Below are positions 34,289 through 58,810 of a DNA stretch of 64,000 bases, one piece after another (the stretch's first letter is position 1; the number at the start of each line of letters is the position of its first letter). The position numbers and the translations under genes are program-made. Origin of the DNA: Arthrobacter sp. FB24 (GTDB lineage Bacteria > Actinomycetota > Actinomycetes > Actinomycetales > Micrococcaceae); NCBI RefSeq assembly GCF_000196235.1, contig NC_008541.1:1302001-1366000 (forward strand). The letters are read 5' to 3'. Under the pieces are notes generated by a model, which worked only from the letters and a program-made list of their open reading frames with translations, was not told the DNA's origin and searched no databases.

Positions 34289-34333
34289 GAGTACTCACTA
34301 CTGGTGCCCGCGGGCCCGCCAGCTGGTTAATTT
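34289..34333 (+). promoter_or_regulatory. LAL3 promoter with GAGTAGT-type dyad
   Basis: The dyad GAGTACTCACTACTG (34289-34303) matches the best copy at 13 of 15 positions. A TAATTT -10 box starts 32 nt after its centre (34328-34333). The 283-nt gap before LAL3 is otherwise free of recognisable genes. GGTCTC stands just before the LAL3 ATG, as it does before ATGs in the leaders at 40 kb and 47 kb. Confidence 0.6.
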
Positions 34334-34373
34334 GGGTTACCAGGAATCGCTCGTAAATACAGAGGTCTCACTC

Positions 34374-37097
34374 ATGTTGACAGCCGATAATGTGGCCAGT
34401 TCACACGCCACCAGGTCCGCCGGAATGACACGGGGCGCCGCGTGGCCTTTGATCGGGCGCAGGGAGGCGGTCAGCGACATCACACGCGCTCTGGCGGAGT
34501 CCACCGGGGGAGTCCTGGTGACCGGGAGCTCAGGCACCGGAAAGACGTTCCTCACCACCCACGCCCTCAAACAGTTCCGCGACGATTCCCTGGTTGTGAC
34601 CCTTCGGTGCAGTGCAGCGCTCTCCCGTTCCCCCTACGGCGCGCTGAACATGCTGTTGAGCGACCTGGAACCGGGGTATTTGAACCACCCGGTGCTTGTA
34701 CTGTCCGGCCTCATGCGGCTCCTGCGCGAACGTGCCAAGGGTAAGACCGTCTACCTCTTTGTCGACAACGCGGGCGAAGCTGATGAACTGACGGCCGTCA
34801 CAATCGCCCAGCTCGCCCGAAACCGTGCCGTACGACTGGTCCTGACATGCTCTGATCCGCTGCGGCTGTCGGCAGAGATTTCGGGACTTTGCGACGGCGG
34901 ATTCCTCACCCGCGTCAACCTCGAACCGCTGTCGTTCCGAGAGGCCGTCAGCTGGCTTGAAGAAGGCCTCAGCGCCAAAGTCTCGCACTCGGCGGTCCAA
35001 TCGCTCTGGGCTGCCAGCGACGGTAACCCGCACTATCTCAAGATGCTTGCAATGGAGCTTGCTGACTCAGGTTCCCTTGTGGTCCGCGACGGGGTGTGGG
35101 TCCTGACTGCTGACCACCACGTCCACGGCCGGGCCATCACCGACCTGATCGCCACCAGGCTGGGGCGGATGGGCGAGGCTGACAGGCGCATCCTGGAAAT
35201 CCTGTCGCTGGCAGAGACACTGCCCTTGGATACCCTGCTGAAGCTGGTGGAAGCCGACGACGTGGACGCCCTCGAGGAGCGCGGAGTCCTGGCGGTCGAG
35301 GACTCCCTTCCACGCCGCGTCAGGATCCAGAGCCAACTGGTGGCCGATGTGGTCCGCGAAAACGTCCCGCCCGGCCGGAGCAACGAGCTCCGCGAAATGG
35401 TCCTCCTCGCCGCGGCACCTTCCCTCCGAACTCCTGCGACGGAACTGCCGTTCGCTGTCTGGGCCCTTGACTGCGGTGCCGCGTTGTCAACGGAAGAATC
35501 CCTTTCAGCCGCACGCCTCGCCAACAGGAGGCTCGATGCGGCCCTGGCCCTGCGGTTTGTCCGCTCGGTACCGGGACATGAAGCGCTGGCTGCGGCAGTG
35601 ACCGAGGAAGTGGCGGCACTGATGACACTGGGCGATGTGGACGAAGCCCTCGAGGTGGTCCGACGGCACCGTAAGGCGTCGACGGGAGACCCGGCGCTCG
35701 CTGAGTGGATCGGTCTCCTGCTGGCCGAGAGCTCGGTGTTCCTTGCCACCCCGGGCGCCTGGCACGAGGCCACTGATTCCCTGGCCCGGGCGCGAAAAGT
35801 ACTCTATGACGACGCGCCTGGTCCGGCAGCCGGTATGCCGGCACCGGAGCTCAGGCGAATCCGGGAACAGCTGACGCTGGCCGAAGCCGAAGCGGCCAGC
35901 TACGCCGGAACATATCGGGAAATGGCTGCAGACCTCGCCGGAGCCCTGGACAATGTGGAGTTCCACAGTGCGGAATTCCGTCTTCAGGCAGGCAGCTGGT
36001 TGTGTGAAGCCTGGGCCGTGACCGGGCGCCAGGCGGATGCCGCAGAGCTCGCTGAACAGCTGAAGCTGCAGTGCCTGCGTCCGGAGATCCCGGTGGCAAT
36101 AGCGCAGTCGGTGATTTCGCGGCTGCGTTTCGCCTACTTGGTTGCCGGCAAATGGGACGAGGCGGCGGAGGCCTTGCCTGACGAGGACTGGGGTCCGTCG
36201 TCCGTGGTCTACCGGAGGTTCAGCGCGACTGAGGTTCCGGAGGCGATCTGCGCCTGCATGCAGGGCCGTGGGCGTGACGGTCTGGACCTGCTCGTTCCCG
36301 GTATCAGCCAATTGCGGATCCAGGACAGCGACGGCGTGCTGACTCTCGCCTGCGCGGCCGCGGCCTACGCGTCCGCACTGCAGGGTGAGCGTGAACAGGC
36401 GCTCGGCTACCTGGCAGAGACGGAGTCGGGTTCCCGGCGGAAATCATGGAAGGTCTCCCGGGCTGAGGGTTACTTCACGGCACTCGCACGGGCGGAGCTG
36501 GATGGTCCCCGGACCGGAATCGGGGAGTTGCTGCGCATGGCGGAGGAGGACCGCGGCACGGGCAACGTAGGCCACGAGCTGCTGTGCTTGAGCTCGGCTG
36601 TCAGGCTTGGGGAATCCGCTGCGGCACCCCGGCTGCTGGAGAGTGCAGCTGAGAGCCAGGGACCATTCGCGGAACTGTGCGCGCAGTACGCCCGGGGCAT
36701 CATTTCCGGTGAAGCCGACGAGCTGATGGCTGCTGCAAACCTCGCGGCCAGGCTGCACAATGACAGGTTTGCCCTGGATATCGCCGAATCAGTTCTCGAC
36801 CTCGACCAGGCACGGCTCGAACGGAGCCTGATACGGCAGGCCAAGCACTTGGCGGAGACCTGCCGCAGGAGGTTGCGGACGCCTCAGGACGGAAACCACG
36901 ACCGCCTCACACTGACTGCCCGGGAGCTCCAGATAGCGCAGCTGGCCGCTGCCGGAGCGAGCAATAAGAGCATCGCAGCCCAGCTGCACGTTTCCGTACG
37001 GACCGTAGAGGGCCACCTCTACCAGATCTACGGCAAGCTAAAAATCGAAGAGCGTTTGGAGCTTCCGGTAGCCCTCGGCAGTACAGGAGATGACTAG
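34374..37097 (+). CDS. Large LuxR-family ATPase regulator (LAL3)
   Basis: A 907-residue LAL. I use ATG 34374, preceded by AGAGG at 8 nt; the open frame runs back to TTG 34332, but that would lie in the predicted -10 box. Walker A GSSGTGKT (residues 51-58) is intact. The Walker B region reads YLFVDNAGEAD, weaker than in LAL1, LAL2 and LAL4. The C-terminal HTH is LTARELQIAQLAAAGASNKS ... SVRTVEGHLYQIY. It has its own promoter with the cluster dyad, so it may be autoregulated or controlled by another LAL. LAL4 follows after 2 nt. Confidence 0.9.
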   Translation: MLTADNVASSHATRSAGMTRGAAWPLIGRREAVSDITRALAESTGGVLVTGSSGTGKTFLTTHALKQFRDDSLVVTLRCSAALSRSPYGALNMLLSDLEPGYLNHPVLVLSGLMRLLRERAKGKTVYLFVDNAGEADELTAVTIAQLARNRAVRLVLTCSDPLRLSAEISGLCDGGFLTRVNLEPLSFREAVSWLEEGLSAKVSHSAVQSLWAASDGNPHYLKMLAMELADSGSLVVRDGVWVLTADHHVHGRAITDLIATRLGRMGEADRRILEILSLAETLPLDTLLKLVEADDVDALEERGVLAVEDSLPRRVRIQSQLVADVVRENVPPGRSNELREMVLLAAAPSLRTPATELPFAVWALDCGAALSTEESLSAARLANRRLDAALALRFVRSVPGHEALAAAVTEEVAALMTLGDVDEALEVVRRHRKASTGDPALAEWIGLLLAESSVFLATPGAWHEATDSLARARKVLYDDAPGPAAGMPAPELRRIREQLTLAEAEAASYAGTYREMAADLAGALDNVEFHSAEFRLQAGSWLCEAWAVTGRQADAAELAEQLKLQCLRPEIPVAIAQSVISRLRFAYLVAGKWDEAAEALPDEDWGPSSVVYRRFSATEVPEAICACMQGRGRDGLDLLVPGISQLRIQDSDGVLTLACAAAAYASALQGEREQALGYLAETESGSRRKSWKVSRAEGYFTALARAELDGPRTGIGELLRMAEEDRGTGNVGHELLCLSSAVRLGESAAAPRLLESAAESQGPFAELCAQYARGIISGEADELMAAANLAARLHNDRFALDIAESVLDLDQARLERSLIRQAKHLAETCRRRLRTPQDGNHDRLTLTARELQIAQLAAAGASNKSIAAQLHVSVRTVEGHLYQIYGKLKIEERLELPVALGSTGDD

Positions 37098-37099
37098 CC

Positions 37100-39784
37100 A
37101 TGACTGAGTCCACCATCACGGCGGAGAGGCTGATCGGGCGATTTGGCATGGTTGCGTCGGTTGTCGATTGCCTTTTGGACACCAATGGCCCGGGTGCGCT
37201 CATTCTTGGCGACGCGGGCATCGGCAAGACGGCGCTCGCCAACGAAGTGATCTTTGAGCTGGGCAGCCGGATCCGGCCTTTCTACGTCTACGCGGGTCCT
37301 TCGCTCTCGGAGGTACCCTACGCGGCCCTTGCGCCGTTGCTGACGGCGTTGACTCCCGGGCAGACGGACCAGCCGCGTGCCGTGCTGAAGGCCTTGGTAA
37401 CGGAGCTCAACCCGGAGGGCTTGCGGGACCAGTCGCAGGCCGTCCTGGTCGTGGAAGACGCCCAGCACCTGGATGACAGCAGCGCCGCAGTCATTGCCCA
37501 GCTTGCCGCTGCGGAGGCCGCCAGGGTGGTGCTGCTGTGCCGGCCGCACCCCTCTCCGCCGCCCGAGGTGTTGTCCATGTGGTCGGAAGGCCTGGTTGAC
37601 CGTTTTGAACTGCAGCCGCTGAGCAAGGAAGAAGCGGACGAGCTGTGCACCCGTGTGCTGGGCTCGCCGCTGGTCCCCAGCGCGAGCGCGGTCCTGTTCA
37701 GGTCGTCCGGCGGAAACCCGATGTTCCTGCTGGAACTGATAGCCCATGCCAAGACCCGTGGCCATCTGGTGCAGCGAAATGACACGTGGGTGCTTTTGGG
37801 CGAGCCGGGAGCAGCCACTGTCCGGCTGATGGACCTCGTCAGGAACCAGATCATGCAGCTGAATCCCGATCAGCGCCAGGCCTTGGAATCAGTGGCGCTC
37901 GCTGAGGCGATCCCCCTCAGCGTCCTGCAGCGTGCTAGCGACAGCCACGCCGTCGATGAGCTCAAGGAGCTCCAGTTCATCGCGATCTCGGCGGACCCGG
38001 CGAGGCATGTCCGCCTGGCCCAGCCCCTGATCGGTGAAGTGATCAGGCAGCTGGTCCCAACCGCCCGCAGCGTAACCATCCGGAGGCGGATCGTGGACCT
38101 TATGGACTCACGCCCGGAGACCCTGGACGGCAGGCTACGGCACGTTACATGGGCGCTGGAGTCCGGCGCAACGGTCCCCGACCCCGACATCCTTGAGGCC
38201 GCCCAGCTGGCAAACCGCCTCTTCATTCCCGAATACGTGGAACGGGTGGTCGGCGCCATAAGGGATCCGTCCCTGAAGCTTGCCGCCCAGGTGGAACTGG
38301 CCCGCGCCAAGCTGTACGGTCGGGATCCCATGGGAGCATGCCTGTGCCTTGAGGGCGTGGTGGAACAAGCCACCGACCTTCGAACCGTCCGCCAGGCTTC
38401 CATGCTGGCGGCCCAACTCGCCGCGGGCAAACGCAACGGCCCGGAGGCCGTGCTGCGGGCGGCCGATGCGTGGGCGGAAGCCGTTTCGAGGTTGGAAGAG
38501 GCCCGGCCCGGATTGGATGCCAAGGATTTTGAGACAGCGCGGCTCGGCAGCAGGCTTCTTGCCCTGGAGGGTTACCAGGCTGCAGGTCGCCATGTGGAGG
38601 CGGAGCCGGAACTCCAGCAGATCTGGGAGTCCACGGACGACGACGAGTCCCGGCTGCTGGCCGGAACGTTGCTGGCAGAGTCGCTGGCACTCACGGGACG
38701 TGCCGTGTCGGCAATCCAGATAATCATGGACGTTGAGGACATCCTTGCCGATAGCGGTGACCGGCGCCTTGAATACGCTGAGTTCGTGATGCGACGCTAC
38801 TTGCTGGCGCTGCTCCATGCCGGTGAATTCGACGTCCTGGAAGAGTATCTGCAGAACCACATCGCCCAGGCCTCGAACTCCCTGATTTACTTCGGCGGGA
38901 TGCTGCATCTGGCGGCGGGCACTGCGGACCTGCGCAGGGGCGCCATCGGGGCCGCCCTGCCGAAACTCAGCCAGGCGGTCGAGGTGCTGCGCCTTTCCGA
39001 TGCCGGTGGGGACTTGCCTGATGCCCTTGCGGCCGCAGCCTACGCGGCGTCCATCCTTAACCGGACGGAAACCGCAAAAGTGAATGCGGACGCCTATGAG
39101 GCGCTGCTATCGGACCACCGCCACGCGTCACTGCTGGGGCAGGCCTACACAGTTGCGGCCCTGGCTGAACGCCTGGGCCTCCAGACGGCCGTCTCAAAGC
39201 TGACGGCCCTCGCGGATGCGGCGGCCGCGTCCGGATTCCTCAGTTATGAAGTGGAGATCCTCTCCCTGGTGCTCCGGCTCGGTGACCTGACCGTCGTGCC
39301 GCGGCTTGCCGCAACTGCGGAGGGCTGCGAAGGGCGCAGCGCGGAGTTCCTGGCCGCCTACTGCCGTGCCCTTGCCGCCAAGGACGTCAACCGGCTCGTG
39401 GAAATGAGCGATGCCGCCGCGCGTGACGGTTTGGACCTGGCAGCGGCAGAATGCGCTGCCCAGGCCCTGCGGATCCTCGAGACGCGGGGAGATAAACCCC
39501 GCCAGTTCGAGGCCCAGAAACTCGTCAAGCAACGCAATGCGGCGCTGACCAAGACCGGCTCGTCCGCCGCCGAGATCCCGCCTGATCTGCACAAGCTGAC
39601 ACGGCGCGAGCAGGAGATTGCCGCGCTTGTCCAAGCCGGTGCGAGCAACCGCGAAATCGCACTCCAGCTCGGCCTGTCGCTCCGCACCGTGGAAGGCCAT
39701 CTTTACCGGATGTTCGCGAAACTCGGAATCAGCCATCGGGAAGACTTGGCGTCGGTAGCCTACGGCTCCCGCCACGCGGGCTAG
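37100..39784 (+). CDS. Large LuxR-family ATPase regulator (LAL4)
   Basis: An 894-residue LAL starting 2 nt after the LAL3 stop, so the two form an operon. Walker A GDAGIGKT (residues 37-44) and Walker B VLVVEDAQHLDD are intact. A helical repeat middle region follows, then the C-terminal HTH LTRREQEIAALVQAGASNRE ... SLRTVEGHLYRMF. It lies immediately upstream of the polysaccharide cluster. An inverted repeat (GGTAGTC/GACTACC, 39828-39850) follows the stop and may be a terminator or operator. Confidence 0.9.
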   Translation: MTESTITAERLIGRFGMVASVVDCLLDTNGPGALILGDAGIGKTALANEVIFELGSRIRPFYVYAGPSLSEVPYAALAPLLTALTPGQTDQPRAVLKALVTELNPEGLRDQSQAVLVVEDAQHLDDSSAAVIAQLAAAEAARVVLLCRPHPSPPPEVLSMWSEGLVDRFELQPLSKEEADELCTRVLGSPLVPSASAVLFRSSGGNPMFLLELIAHAKTRGHLVQRNDTWVLLGEPGAATVRLMDLVRNQIMQLNPDQRQALESVALAEAIPLSVLQRASDSHAVDELKELQFIAISADPARHVRLAQPLIGEVIRQLVPTARSVTIRRRIVDLMDSRPETLDGRLRHVTWALESGATVPDPDILEAAQLANRLFIPEYVERVVGAIRDPSLKLAAQVELARAKLYGRDPMGACLCLEGVVEQATDLRTVRQASMLAAQLAAGKRNGPEAVLRAADAWAEAVSRLEEARPGLDAKDFETARLGSRLLALEGYQAAGRHVEAEPELQQIWESTDDDESRLLAGTLLAESLALTGRAVSAIQIIMDVEDILADSGDRRLEYAEFVMRRYLLALLHAGEFDVLEEYLQNHIAQASNSLIYFGGMLHLAAGTADLRRGAIGAALPKLSQAVEVLRLSDAGGDLPDALAAAAYAASILNRTETAKVNADAYEALLSDHRHASLLGQAYTVAALAERLGLQTAVSKLTALADAAAASGFLSYEVEILSLVLRLGDLTVVPRLAATAEGCEGRSAEFLAAYCRALAAKDVNRLVEMSDAAARDGLDLAAAECAAQALRILETRGDKPRQFEAQKLVKQRNAALTKTGSSAAEIPPDLHKLTRREQEIAALVQAGASNREIALQLGLSLRTVEGHLYRMFAKLGISHREDLASVAYGSRHAG

Positions 39785-39850: not shown

Positions 39851-39976
39851 TTCGCGCGCCCTGACGTCGGAGCCCGCCCCGCGTTCGCGCCGTCCTCAAA
39901 CGAGTATTCATGCGAGTAGTAGGGGCGGGCCGGGCGGGTACCACCCCGTTCACCTCAGTGATGCACCCGCAAAGAC

Positions 39977-40021
39977 GGGTAGAGCCCACTCGCGCCCCGG
40001 CAGGGGGTTGGTTAATACGCT
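39977..40021 (+). promoter_or_regulatory. Promoter of the nucleotide-sugar operon with GAGTAGT-type dyad
   Basis: The dyad GGGTAGAGCCCACTC (39977-39991) matches the best copy at 10 of 15. TACGCT (-10, 40016-40021) starts 32 nt after its centre. This region and the promoter at 47.07-47.12 kb share the flanking words GACGGGTAG, ACTCG and TTAATA. Confidence 0.5.
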
Positions 40022-40282
40022 GTAGCTTGTTGGGCCGCAGGCAACTATTGGGGAAAGAAGTGGGTCTCTAAATGCATCGATCAGCTGACACTTGGTTTTC
40101 GGAATTTCATGTGTCAATCCACCTGGAACACTCCTCCAGGGCGACCAGTATCCCGCCGATCGCGGGCACCCCATTCGAGCCGGCGACGACCCGGGCAGCG
40201 TCTTCTGAGACCGGGATCTGCCACACTTCGTCGCCGGCTTTCTTACAAACGGGACAAATCGAATACCGGGAGGTCGGTTAGC
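40022..40282 (+). promoter_or_regulatory. Long 5' leader of the dehydrogenase operon, with possible leader ORF
   Basis: About 255 nt lie between the predicted transcription start (~40028) and the dehydrogenase ATG. GGGGAAAGAAG ... GGGTCTCTAAATG (40050-40074) closely matches the leader before the 47.5-kb deacetylase. From the ATG at 40072 a 69-codon frame runs to TAG 40279-40281, ending 1 nt before the next start. It could be a leader peptide coupling translation, or a chance frame within a structured RNA. The encoded peptide resembles nothing I know. Confidence 0.35.
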
Positions 40283-41716
40283 ATGACACCGAACACCAAA
40301 CTCAAGGCTCATAAGGCCCCGCTGACGAGGGCCGAGCTTCCACCCCTGCTTGACGATTCCCGGGAGTGGCCGGAAAACGGAACGGGGGCGCCGGAGCTGG
40401 CGCCCGAGGCCGTTGAGTCGGACGCAGCGGAAGCCGACACTGATGCCCAGGACCTCACGTTCACATTCGACGTCGCGATTGTCGGACTTGGCTACGTCGG
40501 CCTGCCCACTGCGCTTGCCATCAACGCCTCCGGGCGCCGCGTCCTGGGCCTCGACGTGTCCGAGAACAGGCTGGCTGTCATCCGGTCCCGGCAGGCAGAC
40601 CTGCTGGACTCCGACAAGGTGCGGCTTGGCAAGGCGCTGGAGGACCCGTCGTTCATGATCAGCACGGACCTCTCACTGCTGGCCCGTGCCGCGGCAGTCG
40701 TTGTTTGTGTCCCCACCCCGGTGGATCCCTACCTCGTGCCGGATCTCGGCATCCTCCGTGCAGCGTGCGCATCCGTGGTCGAATTCGCGGTTCCCGGCCA
40801 GCTGCTGATGCTGACGTCCACCACCTACGTGGGCTCCACCAGGGATCTCCTGGCAGTGCCGCTGGCCGCAAAAGGCCTGATCCCCGGCCGGGACGTGTTC
40901 GTGGCCTTCTCCCCGGAGCGTATCAACCCTGGCGTGGACGCCTTCTCGCACGAAGACGTCCCGCGGGTCGTGGGCGGGGTGACGCCGGCTTGCGGTGAGG
41001 CCGCAGCAGAGTTGCTCCAGGCCAGCACCAAGCTGGTGCACGTTGTGCCCTCAGCAGATGTGGCCGAGATGACCAAACTCGTCGAAAACACCTTCCGGGC
41101 GGTGAACATCGCCCTGGCCAACGAGTTCGCGGATATTTGCCACGAGCTGGGCATGGAAGTCATGGACGTGATTGACGCGGCGTCGACAAAGCCTTACGGC
41201 TTCATGCCGTTCACGCCCGGCCCGGGCGTTGGCGGCCACTGCATTCCCTGCGACCCGCACTACCTGCTGTGGCAGCTGCGGAAGGCAAGGGTCACCGCGC
41301 CGGTCATCGAGCACGCCATGGCGGGCATTGCCGGAAGGCCCCACCAGGTGGTGGAAAAGGCACGCCGCATCCTGTCCGACCGGAACCACGGAATCAACGG
41401 AGCCCGTGTGCTGGTCCTTGGAGTGGCCTACAAGCCCGATGTCGAGGACCTCCGCGAATCTCCGGCCCTGGAAATCATCGCCGCAATGGTGGCCGACGGC
41501 GCTGTCGTTGCCTACCACGATCCGTGGTGCCCCACTGCCCCTGACGGGCAGGGAAGTGCGCTGGAATCGCTGGAGGATCCCTCGGAGTGGGACGCGGACC
41601 TGGTAATCCTTCACACCAGGCACTCCGCGATGGACATCGACTGGCTGAGCGACGCTCCGGCCGTCCTTGACACCACCTACCGGCTTCCGGCCGCCACGAA
41701 CGTCACGAGGTTGTGA
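40283..41716 (+). CDS. Nucleotide-sugar (UDP-HexNAc/UDP-glucose class) 6-dehydrogenase
   Basis: A 477-residue NAD-dependent enzyme that oxidises C6 of a UDP-sugar to a uronate. ATG 40283 follows GGGAGG at 9 nt. Seen: the Rossmann motif VGLGYVGLPTA, VPTPVD, FSPERINPG, the catalytic Cys in GVGGHCIPCDPHYL, and VLGVAYKPDVEDLRESPA. The GHCIPCDP form and overall layout resemble WbpA/WecC (UDP-GlcNAc or UDP-ManNAc) dehydrogenases more than UDP-glucose dehydrogenases, but the exact sugar cannot be read from sequence. The first ~55 residues are a disordered extension. It heads the operon under the dyad promoter. Confidence 0.88.
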   Translation: MTPNTKLKAHKAPLTRAELPPLLDDSREWPENGTGAPELAPEAVESDAAEADTDAQDLTFTFDVAIVGLGYVGLPTALAINASGRRVLGLDVSENRLAVIRSRQADLLDSDKVRLGKALEDPSFMISTDLSLLARAAAVVVCVPTPVDPYLVPDLGILRAACASVVEFAVPGQLLMLTSTTYVGSTRDLLAVPLAAKGLIPGRDVFVAFSPERINPGVDAFSHEDVPRVVGGVTPACGEAAAELLQASTKLVHVVPSADVAEMTKLVENTFRAVNIALANEFADICHELGMEVMDVIDAASTKPYGFMPFTPGPGVGGHCIPCDPHYLLWQLRKARVTAPVIEHAMAGIAGRPHQVVEKARRILSDRNHGINGARVLVLGVAYKPDVEDLRESPALEIIAAMVADGAVVAYHDPWCPTAPDGQGSALESLEDPSEWDADLVILHTRHSAMDIDWLSDAPAVLDTTYRLPAATNVTRL

Positions 41717-41769
41717 ATCCGAGCTGTGATCCCGGCGGCCCCGCCGGGTTTCAAAAGAAAGTAGGAGAA

Positions 41770-42777
41770 GTGAAAACAGCAATCACCGGCGGAGCCGGCT
41801 TCATAGGGAGCCATCTCGTGGAGCACCTCCTAGCGGCCGGGGACAAAGTCACCGTTTTGGATGACCTCTCAACCGGTCGCCTGGAAAACCTCCGGACCGT
41901 GATTGGCCACCGGGATTTCCACTTCGTGGAGGGCACCATCCTGGACCGCGCCGCGGTGGACAAAGTGGTGGCCGGTGCTGACCGGGTATTCCACCTGGCG
42001 GCAGCGGTAGGCGTGAACCTCATCGTGGAGCACCCGCTGGAGAGCCTGCGCACCAATATCCACGGCACGGAAGTGGTCCTGGACGCCGTCCTGGAATCCG
42101 GAGCCTCGCTGCTCCTGGCATCCACCAGTGAAATCTACGGAAAGAACACCTCGGACAGCCTGTCGGAGGAGTCCGACCGGATCCTTGGCTCCGCGCTCAA
42201 GTCCCGCTGGACCTATGCCGCTGCCAAGGGCATCGACGAGGCATTTGCGCACGCCTACTGGCGGCAGTTCGGCCTTCCGGTTGCCATAGTCCGTCTGTTC
42301 AACACGGTGGGCCCCCGGCAGACGGGCCGGTACGGCATGGTGGTGCCCCGCCTCGTTAAGCAGGCTTTGGCCGGCGAGCCGTTGACGGTTTACGGCGACG
42401 GCCACCAGACCAGGTGCTTCTCGTACGTTGGAGACATTGTCCCGGCCATCACCAGGATCTCGGAGGAAAAGTCCGCCTACGGCAACGCGTACAACCTCGG
42501 CGGCAGCTATGAGATCTCGATCTTGACCCTGGCGCAGCGGATCGTGGAGTTGCTCGGCAGCGAAAGCCCCATCACCCTGGTGCCCTACGAAGAGGCCTAC
42601 GCAGAGGGCTATGAGGATATGCGCCGGCGCGTGCCAAACAACAGCAAGGCGAAGGATCTGGTGGGCTTCGACCCCAAGACCACACTGGACCAGATCATCC
42701 TGAACGTGGCGGCCGACCACCGCCCGGTGAAAGCACCCGATCCGCTCGGGTGGAAAGTCACGATGGCGGCCAACTAG
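41770..42777 (+). CDS. NAD-dependent epimerase/dehydratase (extended SDR, nucleotide sugar)
   Basis: A 335-residue extended SDR. I placed the start at GTG 41770, which gives the standard N-terminus VKTAITGGAGFIGSHL; a GTG at 41713 overlaps the previous stop and would add 19 unlikely residues. The active site is STSEIYG plus YAAAK. NTVGPRQTGRYGMVVPR and RVPNNSKAKDLVGF resemble UDP-glucuronate decarboxylase and 4-epimerase relatives. It probably acts on the product of the dehydrogenase encoded 53 nt upstream. The exact reaction is unresolved. Confidence 0.85.
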   Translation: MKTAITGGAGFIGSHLVEHLLAAGDKVTVLDDLSTGRLENLRTVIGHRDFHFVEGTILDRAAVDKVVAGADRVFHLAAAVGVNLIVEHPLESLRTNIHGTEVVLDAVLESGASLLLASTSEIYGKNTSDSLSEESDRILGSALKSRWTYAAAKGIDEAFAHAYWRQFGLPVAIVRLFNTVGPRQTGRYGMVVPRLVKQALAGEPLTVYGDGHQTRCFSYVGDIVPAITRISEEKSAYGNAYNLGGSYEISILTLAQRIVELLGSESPITLVPYEEAYAEGYEDMRRRVPNNSKAKDLVGFDPKTTLDQIILNVAADHRPVKAPDPLGWKVTMAAN

Positions 42778-42857
42778 CCGTCCGTGAGGTGCCGCGCCGG
42801 ACGGGGGGCGGCAACCGTCAAAAGTTATGTGCACCTTCGACGAAAGAGTTGAGTTCC

Positions 42858-48944: not shown

Positions 48945-49006
48945 GCCCCGCCCGTTGCCAGCGCAGAAGCTCCACGGGCTCGAAAACAAGAATCGAGTCG
49001 ATTCCC

Positions 49007-50899
49007 ATGAAGTTACAGACTTCCTGGCGATTAGCATGGCAGGTTGACTTTGGCCCCGCACTGAAGGAGACCAGACAGCGGGCGCGGACGGCTGTCACGG
49101 TTTTGGGCATTGTGGCCCTGGCTGTGACGGGCCTTGCTGCGCAGGCATTTCCGGCGCAGGCGGCGGCACCCACCGTTGTTTCGTTGACGTTCGACGACGG
49201 CAATGCCGACCAGATGGCCGCCGCCCAGATCATGAACAACTACGGTCTGGACGGAACGTTCTACATTCCTTCCGGAAACATCAACAATGCAGGCTACCTG
49301 ACGGTCTCGGATCTTCAGGGCCTCGCAGCCAGCGGCCACGAAATTGGCGGACATACTGTGACCCATGCTGATCTCACCACCCTGCCCTCCGACGAGGTCA
49401 CCCGTCAGGTCTGCAACGACCGGGTCAACCTGACCAACTGGGGCTTCCGTGTCACGAGCTTTGCCTATCCGTTCAGCGCCGTTAATAGTGGTGCCCAGAC
49501 GACGGTAAGAGACTGCGGCTACAACAGCGCCCGTGCGCTGGGCGACATTCAGTCCCGCTTTGGCTGTTCAGGGTGTGCTTGGGCTGAGACTGTTCCTCCG
49601 CTGAACCCGTTCCGCACCGCTGCCTTGGACCAAGTGGACAGCCCATGGACACTTGCTGATTTCCAAAATAGTGTGACCAGAGCCGAAAGCGTCGGCGGGT
49701 GGGTTCAGTTCACCTTCCACCACATCTCTTCCACCCCTGGCCCACTCAGCATTAGTCCCAGGCTCTTCACTCAATTCGCGTCCTGGCTGAAGACACGGCC
49801 GGCCACAACCACGGTTAAGACGGTGGACCAGGTCATCGGCGGAACGGTCAAGCCCGCCGTTGCCGGTCCGGCCGTACCCCCGCCGCCCACGAGCGGCAAC
49901 CTCGTGAAGAATCCGAGCCTTGAAACCTTGGCTGGGGGTGTGCCCCAATGTTGGCAGGCGGCCGGTTACGGGACAAACAACCGCACGTTCAGTACGGTGA
50001 GCCCGGGACGGACGGGGTCGGTGGCAGAGCGCCTGGTCGTGACAGGCTACGTCAACGGTGATGCTAGATTGCTGCCGTCCCTGGACCTTGGCGGATGTTC
50101 GCCGGTGGCAACCCCCGGACACACATACAACTTGGGAGCCTGGTACAAGTCCACTGCCAATACCCAGTTCGCCCTGTATTACCGGACAGGCCTCGGCTAC
50201 TGGGTCTACTGGACTTCGAGCCCGTGGTTCGGGCCCGCTACGACATTCCAAAGGGCCAGCTGGACAACCCCGGCGTTGCCTTCGGGGGCCAGCGGCATCA
50301 GCTTCGGACTCAACCTCTTCAGTAACGGGACGCTGATCACGGACGACTACGAAATGACCGACACCGCGTCGTCCACACCTCCGCCACCGCCACCGCCCGC
50401 CGGAACAAACCTCGTGCAGAACGCCAGCCTTGAAACGGCAGGTGCCGGTTCCGCGCCGCAATGCTGGCAAACGGCGGGCTACGGCTCCAACACGGCGTCG
50501 TTCAGTACCGTCTCAACGGCCAGGGCCGGGACAAAGGCAGAACGCCTGGTGATGAGTAACTACGCCAACGGTGATGCGAAGCTCCTCCAGGCGCTGGACT
50601 CCGGTTCGTGCGCACCGCCGGCGGTCGCCGGCCACACGTATTCGCTCCGCGCCTGGTACACCTCGACGACGGTGACCCAGTTCGCTGTCTACTACCGGAA
50701 CTCCGCCGGAGCCTGGGTCTACTGGACATCAAGTCCCTGGTTCGCTGCCGCCGGTTCCTACACTCAGGCCAGTTTCACCACCCCCGCGTTGCCCTCCGGC
50801 GCAACCGCGATCAGCTTCGGGCTGAACCTCTTCAGGAATGGCACGCTCATCACGGATGACTATGCCATGTACGACACGATTGGAGCGCCGTCGCTGTGA
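49007..50899 (+). CDS. Secreted polysaccharide deacetylase with two C-terminal lectin-like modules
   Basis: A 630-residue exported enzyme. The signal peptide is near residues 28-53 (ending AQAAA). The NodB domain has an intact metal site: TFDD (61-64) and HTVTH (116-120). Two copies of the ~155-residue module follow (49.90-50.37 and 50.41-50.88 kb), separated by a Pro-rich linker (PPPPPPPAG). Each copy has LVxNxSLET, CWQ, GHTY, AWYxST and SFGLNLF. The stop overlaps the GT2 start by 4 nt, tying deacetylation to polymer synthesis. Confidence 0.92.
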   Translation: MKLQTSWRLAWQVDFGPALKETRQRARTAVTVLGIVALAVTGLAAQAFPAQAAAPTVVSLTFDDGNADQMAAAQIMNNYGLDGTFYIPSGNINNAGYLTVSDLQGLAASGHEIGGHTVTHADLTTLPSDEVTRQVCNDRVNLTNWGFRVTSFAYPFSAVNSGAQTTVRDCGYNSARALGDIQSRFGCSGCAWAETVPPLNPFRTAALDQVDSPWTLADFQNSVTRAESVGGWVQFTFHHISSTPGPLSISPRLFTQFASWLKTRPATTTVKTVDQVIGGTVKPAVAGPAVPPPPTSGNLVKNPSLETLAGGVPQCWQAAGYGTNNRTFSTVSPGRTGSVAERLVVTGYVNGDARLLPSLDLGGCSPVATPGHTYNLGAWYKSTANTQFALYYRTGLGYWVYWTSSPWFGPATTFQRASWTTPALPSGASGISFGLNLFSNGTLITDDYEMTDTASSTPPPPPPPAGTNLVQNASLETAGAGSAPQCWQTAGYGSNTASFSTVSTARAGTKAERLVMSNYANGDAKLLQALDSGSCAPPAVAGHTYSLRAWYTSTTVTQFAVYYRNSAGAWVYWTSSPWFAAAGSYTQASFTTPALPSGATAISFGLNLFRNGTLITDDYAMYDTIGAPSL

Positions 50900-52341
50900 T
50901 AGCCGTATACATCGTCCTTGTCCTTGGAATCAGCACGATCTTCTGGTCGTTTGTGGGCTTGTTGCGCCTGGCCAATGAGCAGTACACCCGGCGGATCACG
51001 CTGGGCCCGCCGCTGAGCGGGCGCATGCTGGGGCTCCTGCAGCGCTGGCCGCTGGCCAACCGGCTCGGCCCCGGAGTCCATGGCGCACATACGTTGCCGG
51101 CGCCCAGGGCACACCGGGGCCAGATCCAGCGGGAGCATGGCCGCCATCGCGCCAGGGACCCCAGGATCCTGCCCGCAAATGTCGCGGTGCTTATTGCCGC
51201 CCACAACGAAGCACTTGTCATCAGGGAGACCATCCGGGCCGCCTCGGCGCTGGTGCCGCTCAGGAACATCCACGTGATTTCGGACATGTCCACGGACGAT
51301 ACCTCGGCGATTGCCCGGGCAGCGGGGGTCAAAGTGCTGGACCTCGAACCGAACAGGGGAAAGGCCGGCGCATTGGCCGCCGGAATCGCTTATTTTGAGC
51401 TGTGCCGGAAGTTCAAAGTGGTGATGCTGCTTGACGCGGATACCCGGCCCACCGCGGATTACCTGGAGACCGGGCTGCCGCTCTTCCTCGATCACTCTGT
51501 GGTGGCTGTGGCCGGAAGGGCAAAGTCCATCATGACCCCGCCTCCACCCACCGCGCTGGGCCGGTTCCTGGTGGCATATCGGGAACGGCTGTACATCGTG
51601 GTGCAATTGCTTCTCAAATACGGCCAGGCCGCCAGGGGCGCAAACGTTGTCTCGATCGTGCCGGGCTTTGCCAGCATGTACCGGACGAGCGCACTCGCGA
51701 AAATCAAGGTGCTGGCCCCGGGCCTGGTCATTGAGGACTTCAACATGACCTTCGAGATCCATGCCAAGAAATTAGGGCGGATTGCGTTCCACCCCTCAGC
51801 CGCCGTGGCATACACCCAGGATCCGGACAACCTGCAGGACTATACGCGGCAAGTCCGGCGTTGGATCCTCGGTTTCTGGCAGACCGTCCGGCGGCACCGC
51901 CTGCAGTCCGGAAAGTTCTGGTTTGTTCTGGTGTTCTACATCATCGAACTCGTTATCAGCTGCCTGTTCTTCGTCTTGCTGATCCCGGTCTTCCTGCTCT
52001 CGCTGGTGGCGTCCATGCAGCTCCAGGCCTTCGGTGACAACGGCGAATCCTTCCTTTACCTGTCCGGTCTCATGCGCCCGCAGGACGTCCTCTTGGGTGT
52101 CCTCATTCCGGACTTCCTGCTCACCGTCATCGCGGCCCTTGCCCTCCGCCGGCCTGGCATCCTGCTGATGGCGCCACTCTTCCCGCTCATGCGGATCCTG
52201 GACTCGGTGATCTGCCTGATGGTGCTGCCCCGGGCCTTCTCTGCGGCCTCATCGGGCGTGTGGGTCAGTCCGATGCGGCGCATCCAGGGCGAAGGCCTCG
52301 AGCTGGAAGAAGCCACGGCGGGTGCCGGCATCACCCGTTAG
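50896..52341 (+). CDS. Processive family 2 glycosyltransferase (polysaccharide synthase)
   Basis: A 481-residue membrane synthase of the hyaluronan/chitin/PNAG/cellulose type. It has one N-terminal helix (2-24), a cytoplasmic GT-A domain and about four C-terminal helices (345-460). Seen: VLIAAHNEA, GKAGAL, DADT (180-183), PGFASMYR, acceptor-site ED (280-281) and QVRRW (319-323), the processivity signature. The GTG start overlaps the deacetylase stop (GTGA). A synthase paired with N-deacetylases suggests a beta-linked N-acetylhexosamine polymer such as PNAG or chitin-like chains. The sugar is inferred, not seen. Confidence 0.9.
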   Translation: MIAVYIVLVLGISTIFWSFVGLLRLANEQYTRRITLGPPLSGRMLGLLQRWPLANRLGPGVHGAHTLPAPRAHRGQIQREHGRHRARDPRILPANVAVLIAAHNEALVIRETIRAASALVPLRNIHVISDMSTDDTSAIARAAGVKVLDLEPNRGKAGALAAGIAYFELCRKFKVVMLLDADTRPTADYLETGLPLFLDHSVVAVAGRAKSIMTPPPPTALGRFLVAYRERLYIVVQLLLKYGQAARGANVVSIVPGFASMYRTSALAKIKVLAPGLVIEDFNMTFEIHAKKLGRIAFHPSAAVAYTQDPDNLQDYTRQVRRWILGFWQTVRRHRLQSGKFWFVLVFYIIELVISCLFFVLLIPVFLLSLVASMQLQAFGDNGESFLYLSGLMRPQDVLLGVLIPDFLLTVIAALALRRPGILLMAPLFPLMRILDSVICLMVLPRAFSAASSGVWVSPMRRIQGEGLELEEATAGAGITR

Positions 52342-52347
52342 CGCAAA

Positions 52348-53495: not shown

Positions 53496-53766
53496 TTTTT
53501 TGGGATACATATCTGTTGGGGACATTAACAGGGTTGGCAGGTACCCAATGAGGGCACGCCAAGCACGGGTCATGACCACCAGATCGGCGCGGCAGTGGCC
53601 GCGCCAAGAATCGATGCTGATAGTGAAATCAGCTGAACCGCTTACTCCCCAGAAGTAGACAGCGGGACCGTCAAGAGACCCGTAGAGACCGTTAACACCC
53701 GCTCCACTTTACACGGATGCCTGTGAGTAGCCTGAACGTGCCCGCGAGCAACGCTCCGGCATATTC

Positions 53767-53811
53767 GAGTAGTCACTACTCAAGCCAGCGCGGGCGGTGG
53801 CTAGGTAGCGT
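53767..53811 (+). promoter_or_regulatory. LAL5 promoter with perfect GAGTAGT dyad
   Basis: GAGTAGTCACTACTC (53767-53781) is a perfect 7-bp dyad around one base, the best copy in the window. TAGCGT (-10, 53806-53811) starts 32 nt after its centre. The gap between the lipoprotein start and LAL5 (~390 nt) holds nothing else I recognise except a lone GAGTAG half-site at 53725. The opposite direction has no -10 box at the matching distance. Confidence 0.65.
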
Positions 53812-53887
53812 AGGAGTTGCTAATGCCGGCAGATGGTTGGGGGCGGTCCGGAACTCCACGCTCCGCGGCTAAGGAATCGACGCAACC

Positions 53888-56458
53888 ATGGACGTTAGGG
53901 CAGGAAATTCAGCTTTCCCCCCGGTCATTCGTGTGGCCGAACTCCAGGCCGCAATCAATGCGCTCTCCAATTCAGAGAGTTCGGGCGTCATCGTCACCGG
54001 TGCTGCCGGCTCGGGCCGGACCAGGCTGCTTGCCGCCGTAGCGGAAGCGCTCTCCGGACGGCTCACCGTCATTGTCCACAGCGTTCCCCAATCCTGCCGC
54101 CGGATGAAGTTCGGCATCGGCAGTGTGCTGGCGCCGGCGTTGCCGGCCAATTCCAAGGTGTCACCCCTAAACGTCGTCCGGGCCTGCCGCGATGCGCTTC
54201 GCAGCCAGGACCCGGGGGCAAACGGGATTCTGGTGGTCCTCGATAATGTGGACCACCTGGACGGAACGTCTCTCTGGGTTCTCAACCAGCTCCTCGCGGA
54301 ACCGGACATCAAGATGCTGGCAAGCCACCGTTCGGACCGGCAGCTGCAGATGGAGCTGATGGAGTCGGTGGTGGCCCGGCAGCTGTCCATTGTGGAACTG
54401 GAGGACCTGACACCGGACCAGCTCCGTACTTTCCTTGAGTACAGGCTTCCGGCCCGGCCCGGCCGCAGCCTGGTGCGTGACATCCTCGCGGCATCGGGCG
54501 CCAATGCGCTGACTGCCAGCTGGCTGGTGGACGAAGCGTTGGCGGACGGCCGGATTGTGGAGCGCGGGGATAGCTGTGCGCTTGTCCGGCCGCCGGACCT
54601 GGCGGAGGTACGTCAATTCGACCTGGCCCGACGGCGGATCGAGGCTCTTCCGCCGGAGCAGCGCCAGGTGGTTGACTTCCTGGCGGCCGCGGATCCGGCT
54701 CCGCTTTCCGTGCTCGCCCGGGCCGTGCCGCCGGCCGCCCTGGCCGCGTTGGAACGGGACAACGTCATCAGGCTCCAAATCAGGAGTGACGGCGGGGCCG
54801 ATGTCACGCTGAACCACGAGGTAGAGGCCACTGCTGCCCGGCATTATCCGGGCGGGGCCGGCCCGCTGGACCTTGGCCGTGAACCGGACCTGCACGGCAG
54901 GGGGCCGGGCGGCTCCCGGAGAGCGGGGGAGGAACCGCTGTGGGACCTTTTTCGGCGGGTGGAAGCCGCACTGGATGCCGGCACAGCTGTCGCTGACCTG
55001 GACCTTCTGGCGGTGGCAACCACCGCCAACAACCTCTACGACAGCGACCGCGCCCAGAAGGCGGCCGAAGCGATCAAGGCACCCGAACTCCAGCTTATGG
55101 CGCAGACGGAAGCGGCCCGGGCCCTGTTCCATGCCCACAAGTACGGCCGGAGCGCTGAGGTTCTCCGAGGCCTTGTGGAGAACACCCCGGCCGTGCTGAG
55201 CATGGAATTCGCCCGGGCAGTTGGCCTGCTCCTCCAAGCCCTCATGCCCACGAATCCGGGCCGGGACGCACTTCAGTCCGTACTGGACGGTGCAAGGAAG
55301 CGGCTGGCCATGGCGGCAACTGCGTCCGTCGGCGATACGGCCGCAGACACGTACCAGAATGCCGTCCAGGATGAGCTGGATGTCCTGCAGCTCTACCTGG
55401 AGTCACGGGAGGGAAACTGGCCCAGTCCGGGTGGGGAGCTCTTCCACCGGCTTTGCCCTCCCGGGTTCTGCGACGGAGGCCAGTCATGCCCGGATGATGC
55501 GCCGGATACCCATGCAGGCATCCTGCTCCTGGCGCTGGCTTCACAAGGGCTGTCCGTTCGGGGAAAGTCCGCTGACGCCGTTGCGCTTTCCACCCGGGCG
55601 CTCAACGCCGTGGAACGCCTTCCGCGATGCAGCGTCGATTTCCACTCGACAGTGCTCACCATCCATGCGTTCAACCTGACCCGGTTGGGCCAAGGACCCG
55701 ACGCCGGGAGTCCGGATCTGCGCCCCGGACGCAACAAATGGATGAGCTACCCGGGCGGCCCGCTGCAACTTTTCCGGGCCATGATGTTTTGCCGGCAGTC
55801 TGCCGGACGTGCCGCTGGGCGGGAGTCCGGAGCCGCGGACGCCGAAACAGCAGGTGGCCCTGAGGACCTGCTGGCACTCACCCTGGCGGCTCAGGCCACG
55901 GCGGAGTGGCTGACGTGGGATCTGGCGCAGCTGCCAGGCGCGGGTACCGCCGCGGCAGACGAGCGGCAAGCGGACAATCGGACGGCGGGGCATCGGGCAG
56001 CGGACGGCGACGTCGCGGCGAGGCTGGCTGAAACCTATGCATCGGTGGCACGTCCGGCCGTCACGGGCGCCGCAGGCCCACCGCAGAGGGCGCCCCGCAA
56101 ACCAGCTATGGCGGCGGGTGGCGGCAGGGGCCGGGCACGTGAACTGCTGAACCTCGGAGTCGCGGCCAGGCCGGAGGGAGCGGTGTTTGAACAATCAGCC
56201 GCCGGGCCGCCGGACTGGAGGTGGTCGAGCGACGGGAACGGCGGGCCGGCCGCTGATGCCGCCAAGCTGTCGCAAAGGGAACGCGAAGTGGCGGTACTTG
56301 TTGTCACCGGCATGGGGAGTGCGGGCGTAGCGGCGGAACTCGGGATCGCCGTGAACACGGTAAACGCGCATCTGCAGCGGATCTACGGCAAGCTGGGCGT
56401 TTCCCGGCGCCAGGAGCTGGCTGAACTCTGGAACAGCCTGGACGGCGCGGGGCGGTGA
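53888..56458 (+). CDS. Divergent large LuxR-family regulator (LAL5)
   Basis: An 856-residue LAL relative separated from the other four by the polysaccharide cluster. Walker A reads GAAGSGRT (38-45), with Lys replaced by Arg; Walker B is VVLDNVDHLD. The region between about residues 590 and 790 is low complexity (Ala, Gly, Arg, Asp) instead of the ordered helical repeats of LAL1-4. The HTH is present, but its recognition helix reads VNTVNAHLQRIYGKL rather than VRTVEGHLY, so its DNA target may differ. Its promoter carries the perfect dyad, so it is probably a target of another LAL. Confidence 0.85.
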   Translation: MDVRAGNSAFPPVIRVAELQAAINALSNSESSGVIVTGAAGSGRTRLLAAVAEALSGRLTVIVHSVPQSCRRMKFGIGSVLAPALPANSKVSPLNVVRACRDALRSQDPGANGILVVLDNVDHLDGTSLWVLNQLLAEPDIKMLASHRSDRQLQMELMESVVARQLSIVELEDLTPDQLRTFLEYRLPARPGRSLVRDILAASGANALTASWLVDEALADGRIVERGDSCALVRPPDLAEVRQFDLARRRIEALPPEQRQVVDFLAAADPAPLSVLARAVPPAALAALERDNVIRLQIRSDGGADVTLNHEVEATAARHYPGGAGPLDLGREPDLHGRGPGGSRRAGEEPLWDLFRRVEAALDAGTAVADLDLLAVATTANNLYDSDRAQKAAEAIKAPELQLMAQTEAARALFHAHKYGRSAEVLRGLVENTPAVLSMEFARAVGLLLQALMPTNPGRDALQSVLDGARKRLAMAATASVGDTAADTYQNAVQDELDVLQLYLESREGNWPSPGGELFHRLCPPGFCDGGQSCPDDAPDTHAGILLLALASQGLSVRGKSADAVALSTRALNAVERLPRCSVDFHSTVLTIHAFNLTRLGQGPDAGSPDLRPGRNKWMSYPGGPLQLFRAMMFCRQSAGRAAGRESGAADAETAGGPEDLLALTLAAQATAEWLTWDLAQLPGAGTAAADERQADNRTAGHRAADGDVAARLAETYASVARPAVTGAAGPPQRAPRKPAMAAGGGRGRARELLNLGVAARPEGAVFEQSAAGPPDWRWSSDGNGGPAADAAKLSQREREVAVLVVTGMGSAGVAAELGIAVNTVNAHLQRIYGKLGVSRRQELAELWNSLDGAGR

Positions 56459-56584: not shown

Positions 56585-57916
56585 TTGGTCATGGTATCCA
56601 CTCCCGCTACCGCAGACACCCAGGTCGCGCTAAGTGATGTTGAAGTCCTGCGTATCCGCAACGACTTTCCCGTCCTGGACCAGGAAGTCAACGGCAGGCC
56701 CCTTGTTTACCTGGATTCCGGCGCCACTTCTCAGAACCCCCGCAGCGTCCTCGAAGCCGAGCAGGAGTTCTACGAACTGAGGAATGCCGCGGTGCACCGC
56801 GGTGCCCACCACCTTGCCGTCCAGGCCACCGACGCCTTCGAGGATGCCCGCGCCACTGTGGCCGGTTTCGTCGGCGTGGCGGAGGACGAACTGGTCTGGA
56901 CAGCGAACGCCACCGCCGGGCTCAATCTCCTCGCGTACGCCTTCTCGAACGCCAGTGTCGGCACCGTCCGGGGCGAGGCCGGCCGCTTCGCCCTCGGTCC
57001 GGGGGACGAGATTGTGGTGACGGAGATGGAACACCACGCGAACCTGATTCCCTGGCAGGAGCTCTGCCGGCGCACCGGTGCCACCTTGAAATTCATCCCC
57101 ATCGACGACGACGGCGCGTTGCGGCTTGAGGAGGCGGCGCGGCTTATCACCGGGCGTACCAAGGTCCTGGCGTTCACCCATGCGTCAAATGTGCTTGGAA
57201 CCATCAATCCGGTGCCCGAGCTCGTGCGGCTGGCCCGGGCGGCAGGGGCCCTCGTTGTGCTGGACGCCTGCCAGTCGGCGCCGCACCTGCCCTTGGACTT
57301 CAAGGCCCTGGACGTGGACTTCGCGGTATTCTCCGGCCACAAGATGCTGGCGCCCACGGGGATCGGCGGCGTGTACGGGCGGCGCGAATTGTTGAATGCC
57401 ATGCCTCCGTTCCTGACCGGGGGTTCCATGATCACGACCGTGACGATGGAAAAGGCCGAGTACCTTCCGGCGCCCCAGCGGTTCGAGGCCGGCACCCAGC
57501 CCATCTCGCAGGCTGTGGCGCTCGCGGCGGCCGCGAACTACCTGCGCGAAACCAGCATGGAACGAATCGCCGGCTGGGAAGCGTCCCTGGGCCAGCGGCT
57601 GGTCACGGGGCTGAGCGCCATTGACGGAGTCCGGGTCGTGGGGCCCGCTGCCGGCGTAGAACGGCTCGGCCTGGCAGCCTTCGACGTGGCCGGCGTGCAT
57701 GCGCACGACGTCGGGCAGTACCTGGACAGCATGGGCATCGCCGTCCGCGTGGGTCACCACTGCGCGCAACCGCTCCACCGCCGGCTGGGCCTGACCGCCA
57801 CCACGCGGGCGAGCACCTATTTGTACAACACAACGGAAGAAGTGGACCTGCTGATCGAAGCTGTGGCCCAGGTCCGGCCCTACTTCGGCGTAGAAGGCAC
57901 GGGGACATCCAAATGA
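56585..57916 (+). CDS. sufS: Cysteine desulfurase (SufS family)
   Basis: A 443-residue PLP enzyme that releases sulfur from cysteine for Fe-S clusters. Seen: YLDSGATSQNP at the N-terminus, the PLP Lys in FSGHKMLAPTGIGG, and the catalytic Cys in RVGHHCAQPLHRR. TTG 56585 has AAGGAG at 7 nt; ATG 56591 is the alternative. The stop overlaps the sufU start by 4 nt. SufS group II enzymes pass sulfur to SufU. Confidence 0.94.
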   Translation: MVMVSTPATADTQVALSDVEVLRIRNDFPVLDQEVNGRPLVYLDSGATSQNPRSVLEAEQEFYELRNAAVHRGAHHLAVQATDAFEDARATVAGFVGVAEDELVWTANATAGLNLLAYAFSNASVGTVRGEAGRFALGPGDEIVVTEMEHHANLIPWQELCRRTGATLKFIPIDDDGALRLEEAARLITGRTKVLAFTHASNVLGTINPVPELVRLARAAGALVVLDACQSAPHLPLDFKALDVDFAVFSGHKMLAPTGIGGVYGRRELLNAMPPFLTGGSMITTVTMEKAEYLPAPQRFEAGTQPISQAVALAAAANYLRETSMERIAGWEASLGQRLVTGLSAIDGVRVVGPAAGVERLGLAAFDVAGVHAHDVGQYLDSMGIAVRVGHHCAQPLHRRLGLTATTRASTYLYNTTEEVDLLIEAVAQVRPYFGVEGTGTSK

Positions 57917-58398
57917 GCGCCCTGGATGCGATGTACCAGCAGCTGATCCTGGAGCACGCAAAAGCCCGCAGCGGAGCTGACCTGACGGCTGATGAAGCCA
58001 CGGAGACGCCTCACCAGGCAGGAGTCGGGCAGTGCCATCAGCTCAATCCGGTGTGTGGCGACGAAATTACGCTGCGCCTGGAACTTGAGGCCGCGGGGAA
58101 CCCGCCATCAGTGAAGGGAATCCACTGGCATGGTGACGGTTGCGCCATCTCAATGGCCTCGGCCTCAATATTGAGCGAATTGTCCGAGGGGGCGTCGCCG
58201 GACGAGCTCAGCGAAATGATCGACCATTTCCGGGAGCTCATGCGTTCGCGGGGCCGGCTGGAGCCGGACGAGGAAATTCTGGGTGATGCGGCGGCCCTGG
58301 CCGGAGTGGCAAAGTACCCGGCCAGGGTGAAATGCGCCATGCTGGCGTGGGTGGCTGCCGAGGACGCGCTGCGGCAGGCCGTAGCCACCACCCGCTAG
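57913..58398 (+). CDS. sufU: Fe-S cluster assembly sulfur acceptor SufU (NifU-like)
   Basis: A 161-residue zinc-dependent sulfur acceptor. The three conserved Cys are seen in NPVCGDEITL, GDGCAISMASASI and ARVKCAMLAW, with the metal-binding Asp beside the first. It overlaps sufS by ATGA. Its 3' end overlaps the convergent HTH gene by 4 nt. Confidence 0.94.
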   Translation: MSALDAMYQQLILEHAKARSGADLTADEATETPHQAGVGQCHQLNPVCGDEITLRLELEAAGNPPSVKGIHWHGDGCAISMASASILSELSEGASPDELSEMIDHFRELMRSRGRLEPDEEILGDAAALAGVAKYPARVKCAMLAWVAAEDALRQAVATTR

Positions 58399-58619: not shown

Positions 58620-58636
58620 TGTTCTCAGCTCTCCTG

Positions 58637-58674
58637 GGACGTAGTTCGATCCTGAGGACGTACTTCAATCCTGA
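58637..58674. repeat. Two tandem 19-nt direct repeats upstream of the HTH gene
   Basis: GGACGTAGTTCGATCCTGA (58637-58655) is followed at once by GGACGTACTTCAATCCTGA (58656-58674); 17 of 19 bases match. They sit in the promoter region of the minus-strand HTH gene. Confidence 0.6.
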
Positions 58675-58766
58675 GACAAACGTCGCTGAGCCGATCGCCG
58701 ATCTTATGGCTACTTTATGGCATGGTGAGCTTGATGTGAAGAGCGCGCCGCAATGGGGATAAAGAC

Positions 58767-58810
58767 AAGTAGTGACTACTCTAGTGGCGTGCCGGCGGGG
58801 CCCGTAGCGT
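58767..58810 (+). promoter_or_regulatory. GAGTAGT-type dyad and -10 box before a 45-codon gene
   Basis: AAGTAGTGACTACTC (58767-58781) matches the best dyad at 13 of 15, one of the mismatches being the central base. TAGCGT (-10, 58805-58810) starts 31 nt after its centre and is the same hexamer as at LAL5. The expected transcription start falls on or next to the ATG at 58817, implying a leaderless mRNA. Confidence 0.6.

Follow-up and report, generated by a model that had tools for sequence, protein, structure and literature searches.

A palindromic operator with fixed promoter spacing, a conserved leader RNA and candidate LAL regulators in Arthrobacter sp. FB24 and related Micrococcaceae

A 64,000-nucleotide (nt) stretch of the Arthrobacter sp. 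FB24 genome (hereafter the window; positions 1302001-1366000 of contig 4, in a genome of 5.07 Mb) carries five promoters in which a palindromic operator stands at a fixed distance from the -10 box. The same window encodes five proteins, LAL1-LAL2, LAL3-LAL4 and LAL5, that combine a LuxR-type helix-turn-helix with an ATPase. Pfam GerE was matched over its cut-off in all five, and AAA_16 was also matched in all five, over its cut-off only in LAL3. With an N-terminal ATPase and a C-terminal LuxR/GerE helix-turn-helix in one large protein, LAL1 to LAL5 all appear to be LAL regulators of the MalT type. As a whole, the observations described below are probably best explained by an operator regulon that is driven by the LAL1-LAL2 pair and has an additional layer of control in RNA. 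Coordinates of the features are collected in Table 1.

The operator and its promoter geometry

The original prediction described 15-bp dyads at window positions 53767, 34289, 47074, 58767 and 39977, with 15, 13, 12, 13 and 10 of 15 matches, respectively, and all five are present as described. The 15-bp dyad was part of a larger element, however: the consensus of 60 sites, AAA-n-ACGAGTA-N5-TACTCGT-G, includes an A-run before the dyad and a half-site, ACGAGTA, that is longer than first reported. A TAnnnT box had also been placed 31 or 32 nt past the dyad centre. Such a box is found at all five sites, but the TAATTT at 34289 reads TAATTG in relatives with LAL4 near 64% identity. The hexamer kept in those relatives is TTAATT, one base upstream, and TTAATT is therefore probably the -10 hexamer in use at LAL3.

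The five sites stand out from the background of the window. When up to three mismatches to the perfect dyad were allowed, both strands of the window held 7 matches against 0.43 expected, and none of 100 shuffles reached 7. The same loose search of both strands of the whole genome gave 28 matches versus 152 for the reversed pattern, and its yield at that scale is mostly background. A matrix limited to the dyad columns was more discriminating. It was built from 41 sites of genomes outside the 27 with a LAL4 of at least 60% identity, repeating an earlier run that still held two sites (L131, L141) of LAL4-bearing genomes. On both window strands the five reported sites ranked 1 to 5 (36.8, 27.5, 27.2, 23.3 and 20.1); the next forward site scored 6.2, and the maxima of ten random windows were 3.7-9.4. 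The same five came out on top with a matrix drawn solely from 11 sites in other genera (31.2-20.0, with random windows at 13.4 or less). The training sites for these matrices themselves came from searches seeded with the window's sites.

The spacing between dyad and -10 box was examined in sites found by a dyad-only search of 150 genomes of the genus, a design that avoids selecting on the -10 box. The dyad was matched in 129 of these genomes, at 349 places versus 169 for a control pattern. One locus was taken from each of 30 of the 129 genomes, and counting was limited to the 26 dyads whose centre is flanked by C on either side. In these 26, T....T lay at an offset of 23 nt from the inner dyad in 15 and of 24 nt in 12, while no other offset between 5 and 49 had more than 2. 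The earlier argument that such spacing is hard to get by chance thus holds in sites chosen without regard to the -10 box. The spacing was also seen beyond the genus: in ten loci there, T....T stands at 23 on one strand for 9 of the 10 dyads that have no more than one mismatch. One near-perfect dyad without a -10 box at the set distance was seen on the minus strand of L043, at about 4604 (C4:3548588).

Two targets give an indication of where transcription begins. An ATG lies 7 nt past the -10 box both in the 45-aa gene behind 58767 and in a small gene elsewhere in the genome, in several relatives each, and both targets look leaderless. Such starts would fix the transcription start and hence put the dyad centre at -43/-44, in agreement with the predicted centre near -43. 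No TTGACA is present at the -35 place in the five window promoters. With a dyad at a fixed distance over the -35 place, a -10 box and no -35 element, the promoters appear to have the class-II architecture of LuxR-type activators. The dyad AAA-n-ACGAGTA-N5-TACTCGT, 23-24 nt upstream of the -10 box, would accordingly be the operator of an activator placed just upstream of RNA polymerase, standing in for the missing -35 element. A partial short helix-turn-helix gene, which we take by eye to be excisionase/BldC-like, adjoins the 58767 promoter at 58400-58620 on the minus strand.

Conservation of dyad and spacing in relatives, proposed earlier as a check, is also seen. All six named Arthrobacter loci carry the sites 47074, 53767 and 58767 with unchanged spacing (18/18). 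These loci, fetched by their LAL5 (74-81% identity in the six records), come from six genomes that are also part of the later genus-wide set. The sites 34289 (LAL3) and 39977 (UDP-glucose dehydrogenase) recur in further relatives. A LAL4 of at least 60% identity was found in 27 of the 150 genus genomes, and all 27 have sites of model R1, whose training set consisted of the window's sites and those of relatives; 77 of the other 123 have at least one R1 site at an E-value of 0.01. That the operator and its spacing are real is close to certain.

The regulon is larger than the window suggests. A second model, R2, gave 20 hits in the organism's own genome at E-values up to 10, five of which are the window's sites and three of which were not examined. 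All twelve further hits that were examined have a -10 box at 23 or 24 nt, although this is not an independent test of spacing, since R2 was trained on sites from the R1 stage that had T....T at 23 or 24 and its training included the -10 columns. The genome would thus hold about 17 candidate sites, the weakest of which may be chance matches. Among the products of genes behind the further sites are an Hpt-domain protein, an enolase-superfamily enzyme, an MFS transporter, a LysM protein, a FIMAH-domain protein, a transglycosylase-associated membrane protein and apparently secreted proteins. Promoters of this kind are also found in relatives, in front of Hpt-domain and GAF-ANTAR genes (L076, L078, L079, L089, L109, L110, L112) and of SufS-NifU genes. 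The original prediction of a LuxR-type regulon with LAL genes and polysaccharide operons among its members is supported, but the block of only five promoters was abandoned after the genome scans, and the expectation of few further hits, all near envelope genes, was not borne out, with about twelve further candidates that include Hpt, enolase-superfamily and MFS genes. The SufS-NifU pair would also belong to the regulon. In relatives, SufS-like and NifU genes stand directly behind an operator (L114-L116, L164, L165); in the window, LAL5 intervenes.

The leader RNA and the GGUCUC motif

Several transcripts of the regulon share a second conserved element. The leaders of the deacetylase and dehydrogenase operons, and those of other operator genes, contain a nested hairpin with an outer stem of the GGGCCGGCGGCG type and the inner loop GAGACC; the element is also present in L154, L157, L159, L160, L162, L163, L164 and L165. 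In an alignment of 18 sequences (A5), none of 19 pairs is broken and 5 have compensatory changes. The A5 rows were found by a pattern that fixed the inner stem, so that only the outer stem is a free test. An alignment of 22 more diverse sequences (A6) has pairing in 96% of cells and compensatory changes in 13 of 19 pairs, and none of 500 shuffles scored as high; 14 of its 22 rows came from a stem-filtered list of hairpin candidates. The stem search behind that list was too loose (456 candidates, mostly coding) and was used only to pick hairpins behind operators. No Rfam family matched the leader at its gathering score, the only match in the window being a tRNA elsewhere, and a relaxed search of the leader gave only weak, implausible matches at E-values up to 5. 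ANTAR-target RNAs consist of two successive hairpins with six-base loops. The leader, one nested hairpin with a larger loop, does not fit this description. The leader RNA is a conserved element; what it does is a matter of inference.

Its distribution was compared with that of LAL1. A model of the RNA, R3, detected it in 100 of 197 genomes of the family, comprising 70 of 71 LAL1-positive and 30 of 126 LAL1-negative genomes. In LAL1-positive genomes outside the genus, 77 of the 95 R3 matches listed lie within 10 kb of a LAL1-like gene, the list ending at weak scores. Across the order, the RNA was found in 15 of 297 genomes, and all 15 belong to this family, the Micrococcaceae.

The RNA is also associated with the operator. 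In 19 of 30 RNA loci an operator with the right -10 spacing was found within 480 nt upstream, whereas none of 120 control windows had one. Genomes that supplied A6 rows account for four of these loci (L217, L221, L222, L223), and one at a contig end (L236) was counted as a miss here and left out of the following count. Among 6-mers in 28 regions upstream of the RNA, GGTCTC was the commonest (22), followed by CGAGTA, which is an operator half (18); downstream of the RNA, GGTCTC was present in 3 only. An ATG follows within 9 nt in 20 of 29 copies of GGTCTC.

In the RNA, GGUCUC is complementary to the loop sequence GAGACC. Pairing can extend to the next base beyond these six in 29 of 33 leaders. 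At this position G is found in the leader in 4 of 4 cases with C in the loop, versus 7 of 29 with T in the loop (Fisher P 0.008, not corrected for relatedness). Bases further out pair less well (7, 23 and 16 of 33). Several transcripts thus have the GAGACC-loop hairpin, GGUCUC just before the AUG, or both, and pairing of the loop with GGUCUC, within one leader or between transcripts, may set translation or read-through. Pairing between transcripts was kept in play because hairpin-only leaders (several SufS genes and the MFS gene) and a GGUCUC-only leader (LAL3) exist. In a tentative extension, which we consider possible but on balance doubtful, leader RNAs induced by a LAL would use their GAGACC loop to pair with GGUCUC at start codons of the regulon, including that of the next LAL gene, both on the same transcript and on others, so that one DNA operator and an RNA code would exert double control. 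If so, hairpin-only leaders such as those of SufS and the MFS gene would send the signal, and GGUCUC-only leaders such as that of LAL3 would receive it.

The candidate regulator and rival explanations

The original prediction held that one LAL drives the whole block. A LAL is indeed likely to be the regulator, but the role is better assigned to a pair, LAL1-LAL2, which is encoded just upstream of the first operator and is probably the best candidate, rather than LAL5. This assignment draws on linkage and distribution. In several relatives without a LAL4 of at least 60% identity, a LAL1-LAL2 pair (35-41% identical) lies beside SufS-NifU, and an operator stands between LAL2 and SufS in 5 of six such stretches (L114, L115, L116, L164, L165). 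Of the 53 dyads found outside the genus, 27 are in LAL1-positive genomes, and 11 of these have a LAL1-like gene no more than 10 kb away (P about 6e-16 for random placement). Both cores are intact in 12 dyads from 59 LAL1-positive genomes versus 4 from 126 LAL1-negative ones; the genomes are related, and neither the P value nor the counts represent independent draws. All 11 LAL1 and all 9 LAL2 sequences in the alignment have the same recognition helix, SxRTVEGHLY. The LAL1-LAL2 pair would switch on LAL3-LAL4, LAL5, SufS-NifU and the polysaccharide genes, and beyond these a larger group of genes for signalling, transport and secreted proteins.

Several observations weigh against this assignment. 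The helix SxRTVEGHLY is also found in 8 of 8 LAL3 and 7 of 8 LAL4 sequences, and LAL3 and most LAL4 proteins may also bind the operator. No operator is present in front of LAL1-LAL2 themselves in the window, one LAL1-LAL2-SufS stretch (L123) has none, and a dyad between LAL pairs (L156 11139-) lacks a -10 box at the set distance. The dyad search of 185 genomes outside the genus gave 53 places in 42 genomes versus 212 for the control pattern, indicating that most extra-genus dyads are background. The RNA occurs without a LAL1-model match at an E-value of 1e-80 in 4 of 32 genera (g17, g22, g23, g30; e.g. G165, G197, G222, G178). Furthermore, the regulator may be encoded elsewhere and the LAL loci be its targets, and linkage alone does not separate the two situations. 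One form of this idea is that the operator is bound by a stand-alone protein of the LuxR/NarL type, conserved across the genus, with the LAL loci only as its targets; this is unlikely in our judgement. In each of the six genomes searched there were 8 to 17 LuxR-type matches, counting the LALs; the presence of others besides the LALs likewise counts against the pair, and operators before Hpt-domain genes would fit a phosphorelay. In other genera, however, operators and RNA alike are linked to LAL loci, which argues for a LAL instead.

The remaining explanations are harder to reconcile with the data. It is very unlikely that the dyad belongs to a promoter read by an alternative sigma factor and is not an activator site: a fixed spacing to a -10-like box and the absence of TTGACA would suit such a promoter, but an element of two-fold symmetry that spans 15-19 bp around a centre near -43 is unlike a -35 hexamer, and the boxes vary from TAGCGT to TTGACT. 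LAL5 sits behind the perfect dyad, as might a master regulator of the block, but this candidate was dropped for its different recognition helix, NTVNAHLQ, and has become extremely improbable; several operator-bearing stretches also have no LAL5 relative nearby, an observation on the stretches themselves, as no whole-genome LAL5 search was made. Chance resemblance of unrelated sequences might be suspected from the weak match at 39977 and from the background in loose dyad searches. The window shuffles, the spacing in dyad-only sites and the matrix ranking led to its rejection, the association of RNA with operator and the conservation of the same promoters with the same spacing also speak against it, and its probability is negligible.

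Table 1. Window features belonging to, or lying within, the proposed LAL1-LAL2 regulon
Feature	Position	Strand	Remarks
LAL1, proposed regulator	28600..31332	+	Pfam GerE and AAA matches; relatives
LAL2, proposed LAL1 partner	31304..34090	+	
Operator (19-bp form) before LAL3-LAL4	34287..34305	+	also in L075, L080, L081, L083, L086, L087, L092, L105, L106, L113
LAL3 promoter -10 region	34327..34333	+	TTAATT at 23 or TAATTT at 24
GGTCTC, four bases before likely LAL3 ATG (34374)	34364..34369	+	
LAL3, target	34374..37097	+	likely ATG at 34374
LAL4, likely target, behind LAL3	37100..39784	+	
Operator before UDP-glucose dehydrogenase operon	39975..39993	+	
-10 box TACGCT, dehydrogenase operon	40016..40021	+	
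GGTCTC before ATG out of frame with dehydrogenase	40063..40068	+	
UDP-sugar dehydrogenase, epimerase, SLH deacetylase, likely targets	40109..44831	+	
Leader RNA element, nested hairpin, loop GAGACC	40167..40250	+	model R3 hit G000:C4:1342167-1342250
Operator before polysaccharide-deacetylase operon	47072..47090	+	
-10 box TAGGCT, deacetylase operon	47112..47117	+	
GGTCTC before ATG of short upstream reading frame, deacetylase leader	47158..47163	+	
Leader RNA element, deacetylase operon	47343..47419	+	model R3 hit G000:C4:1349343-1349419; covariation
Two polysaccharide deacetylases and glycosyltransferase, likely targets	47496..52341	+	
Operator before LAL5-SufS-NifU	53765..53783	+	
-10 box TAGCGT, LAL5 promoter	53806..53811	+	
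LAL5, target	53888..56458	+	recognition helix differs
Class-V aminotransferase (here called SufS) and NifU_N protein	56585..58398	+	
Operator before 45-aa gene	58765..58783	+	
-10 box TAGCGT, 45-aa gene	58805..58810	+	
Small gene, 45 aa, hydrophobic stretch, apparently leaderless	58817..58954	+	start codon 7 nt past -10; start kept in relatives

Comparison with known systems and significance

The promoter geometry has a parallel in the lux box of LuxR activators, a dyad centred near -42 that replaces the -35 element and is bound by acyl-homoserine-lactone receptors. The dyad described here occupies the same place, but it is LAL-linked, odd-centred and 19 bp long, unlike the lux box, which is given as a 20-bp inverted repeat in the excerpted text of PMC9628970. 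According to the same excerpts, the founding LAL, E. coli MalT, is a large ATPase with a C-terminal LuxR-type helix-turn-helix that activates sugar-gene promoters, in which respects it resembles the LAL proteins and polysaccharide promoters of the window. MalT boxes, however, are described there as short (GGA[TG]GA), whereas the element reported here is a 15-19 bp dyad at one fixed place, and the MalT box is not contained in the consensus of the 60 sites. SCO6993 of Streptomyces coelicolor is an actinobacterial LAL that, like the proposed regulator, is associated with palindromic sites; it binds palindromes and its own promoter (PMC9628970, in excerpt). It differs in being a repressor with a consensus that its authors found unpredictable, whereas here one consensus recurs in many genomes. 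The succession of regulators proposed here resembles PimR-PimM, in which a LAL-containing regulator switches on a second LuxR-type regulator (excerpts of PMC9628970), although SARP-LAL regulators such as PimR are reported to use a SARP domain and heptameric direct repeats. LALs are termed a poorly studied family in an excerpt of PMC3282765. A literature search, which most subscription papers lay beyond, found no publication on the operator or the leader RNA.

For many genomes of one family, these findings supply a sharp operator together with the geometry of its promoters and a candidate regulator pair open to testing. They also bring to light a structured leader RNA that has no Rfam match and is tied to the same promoters.

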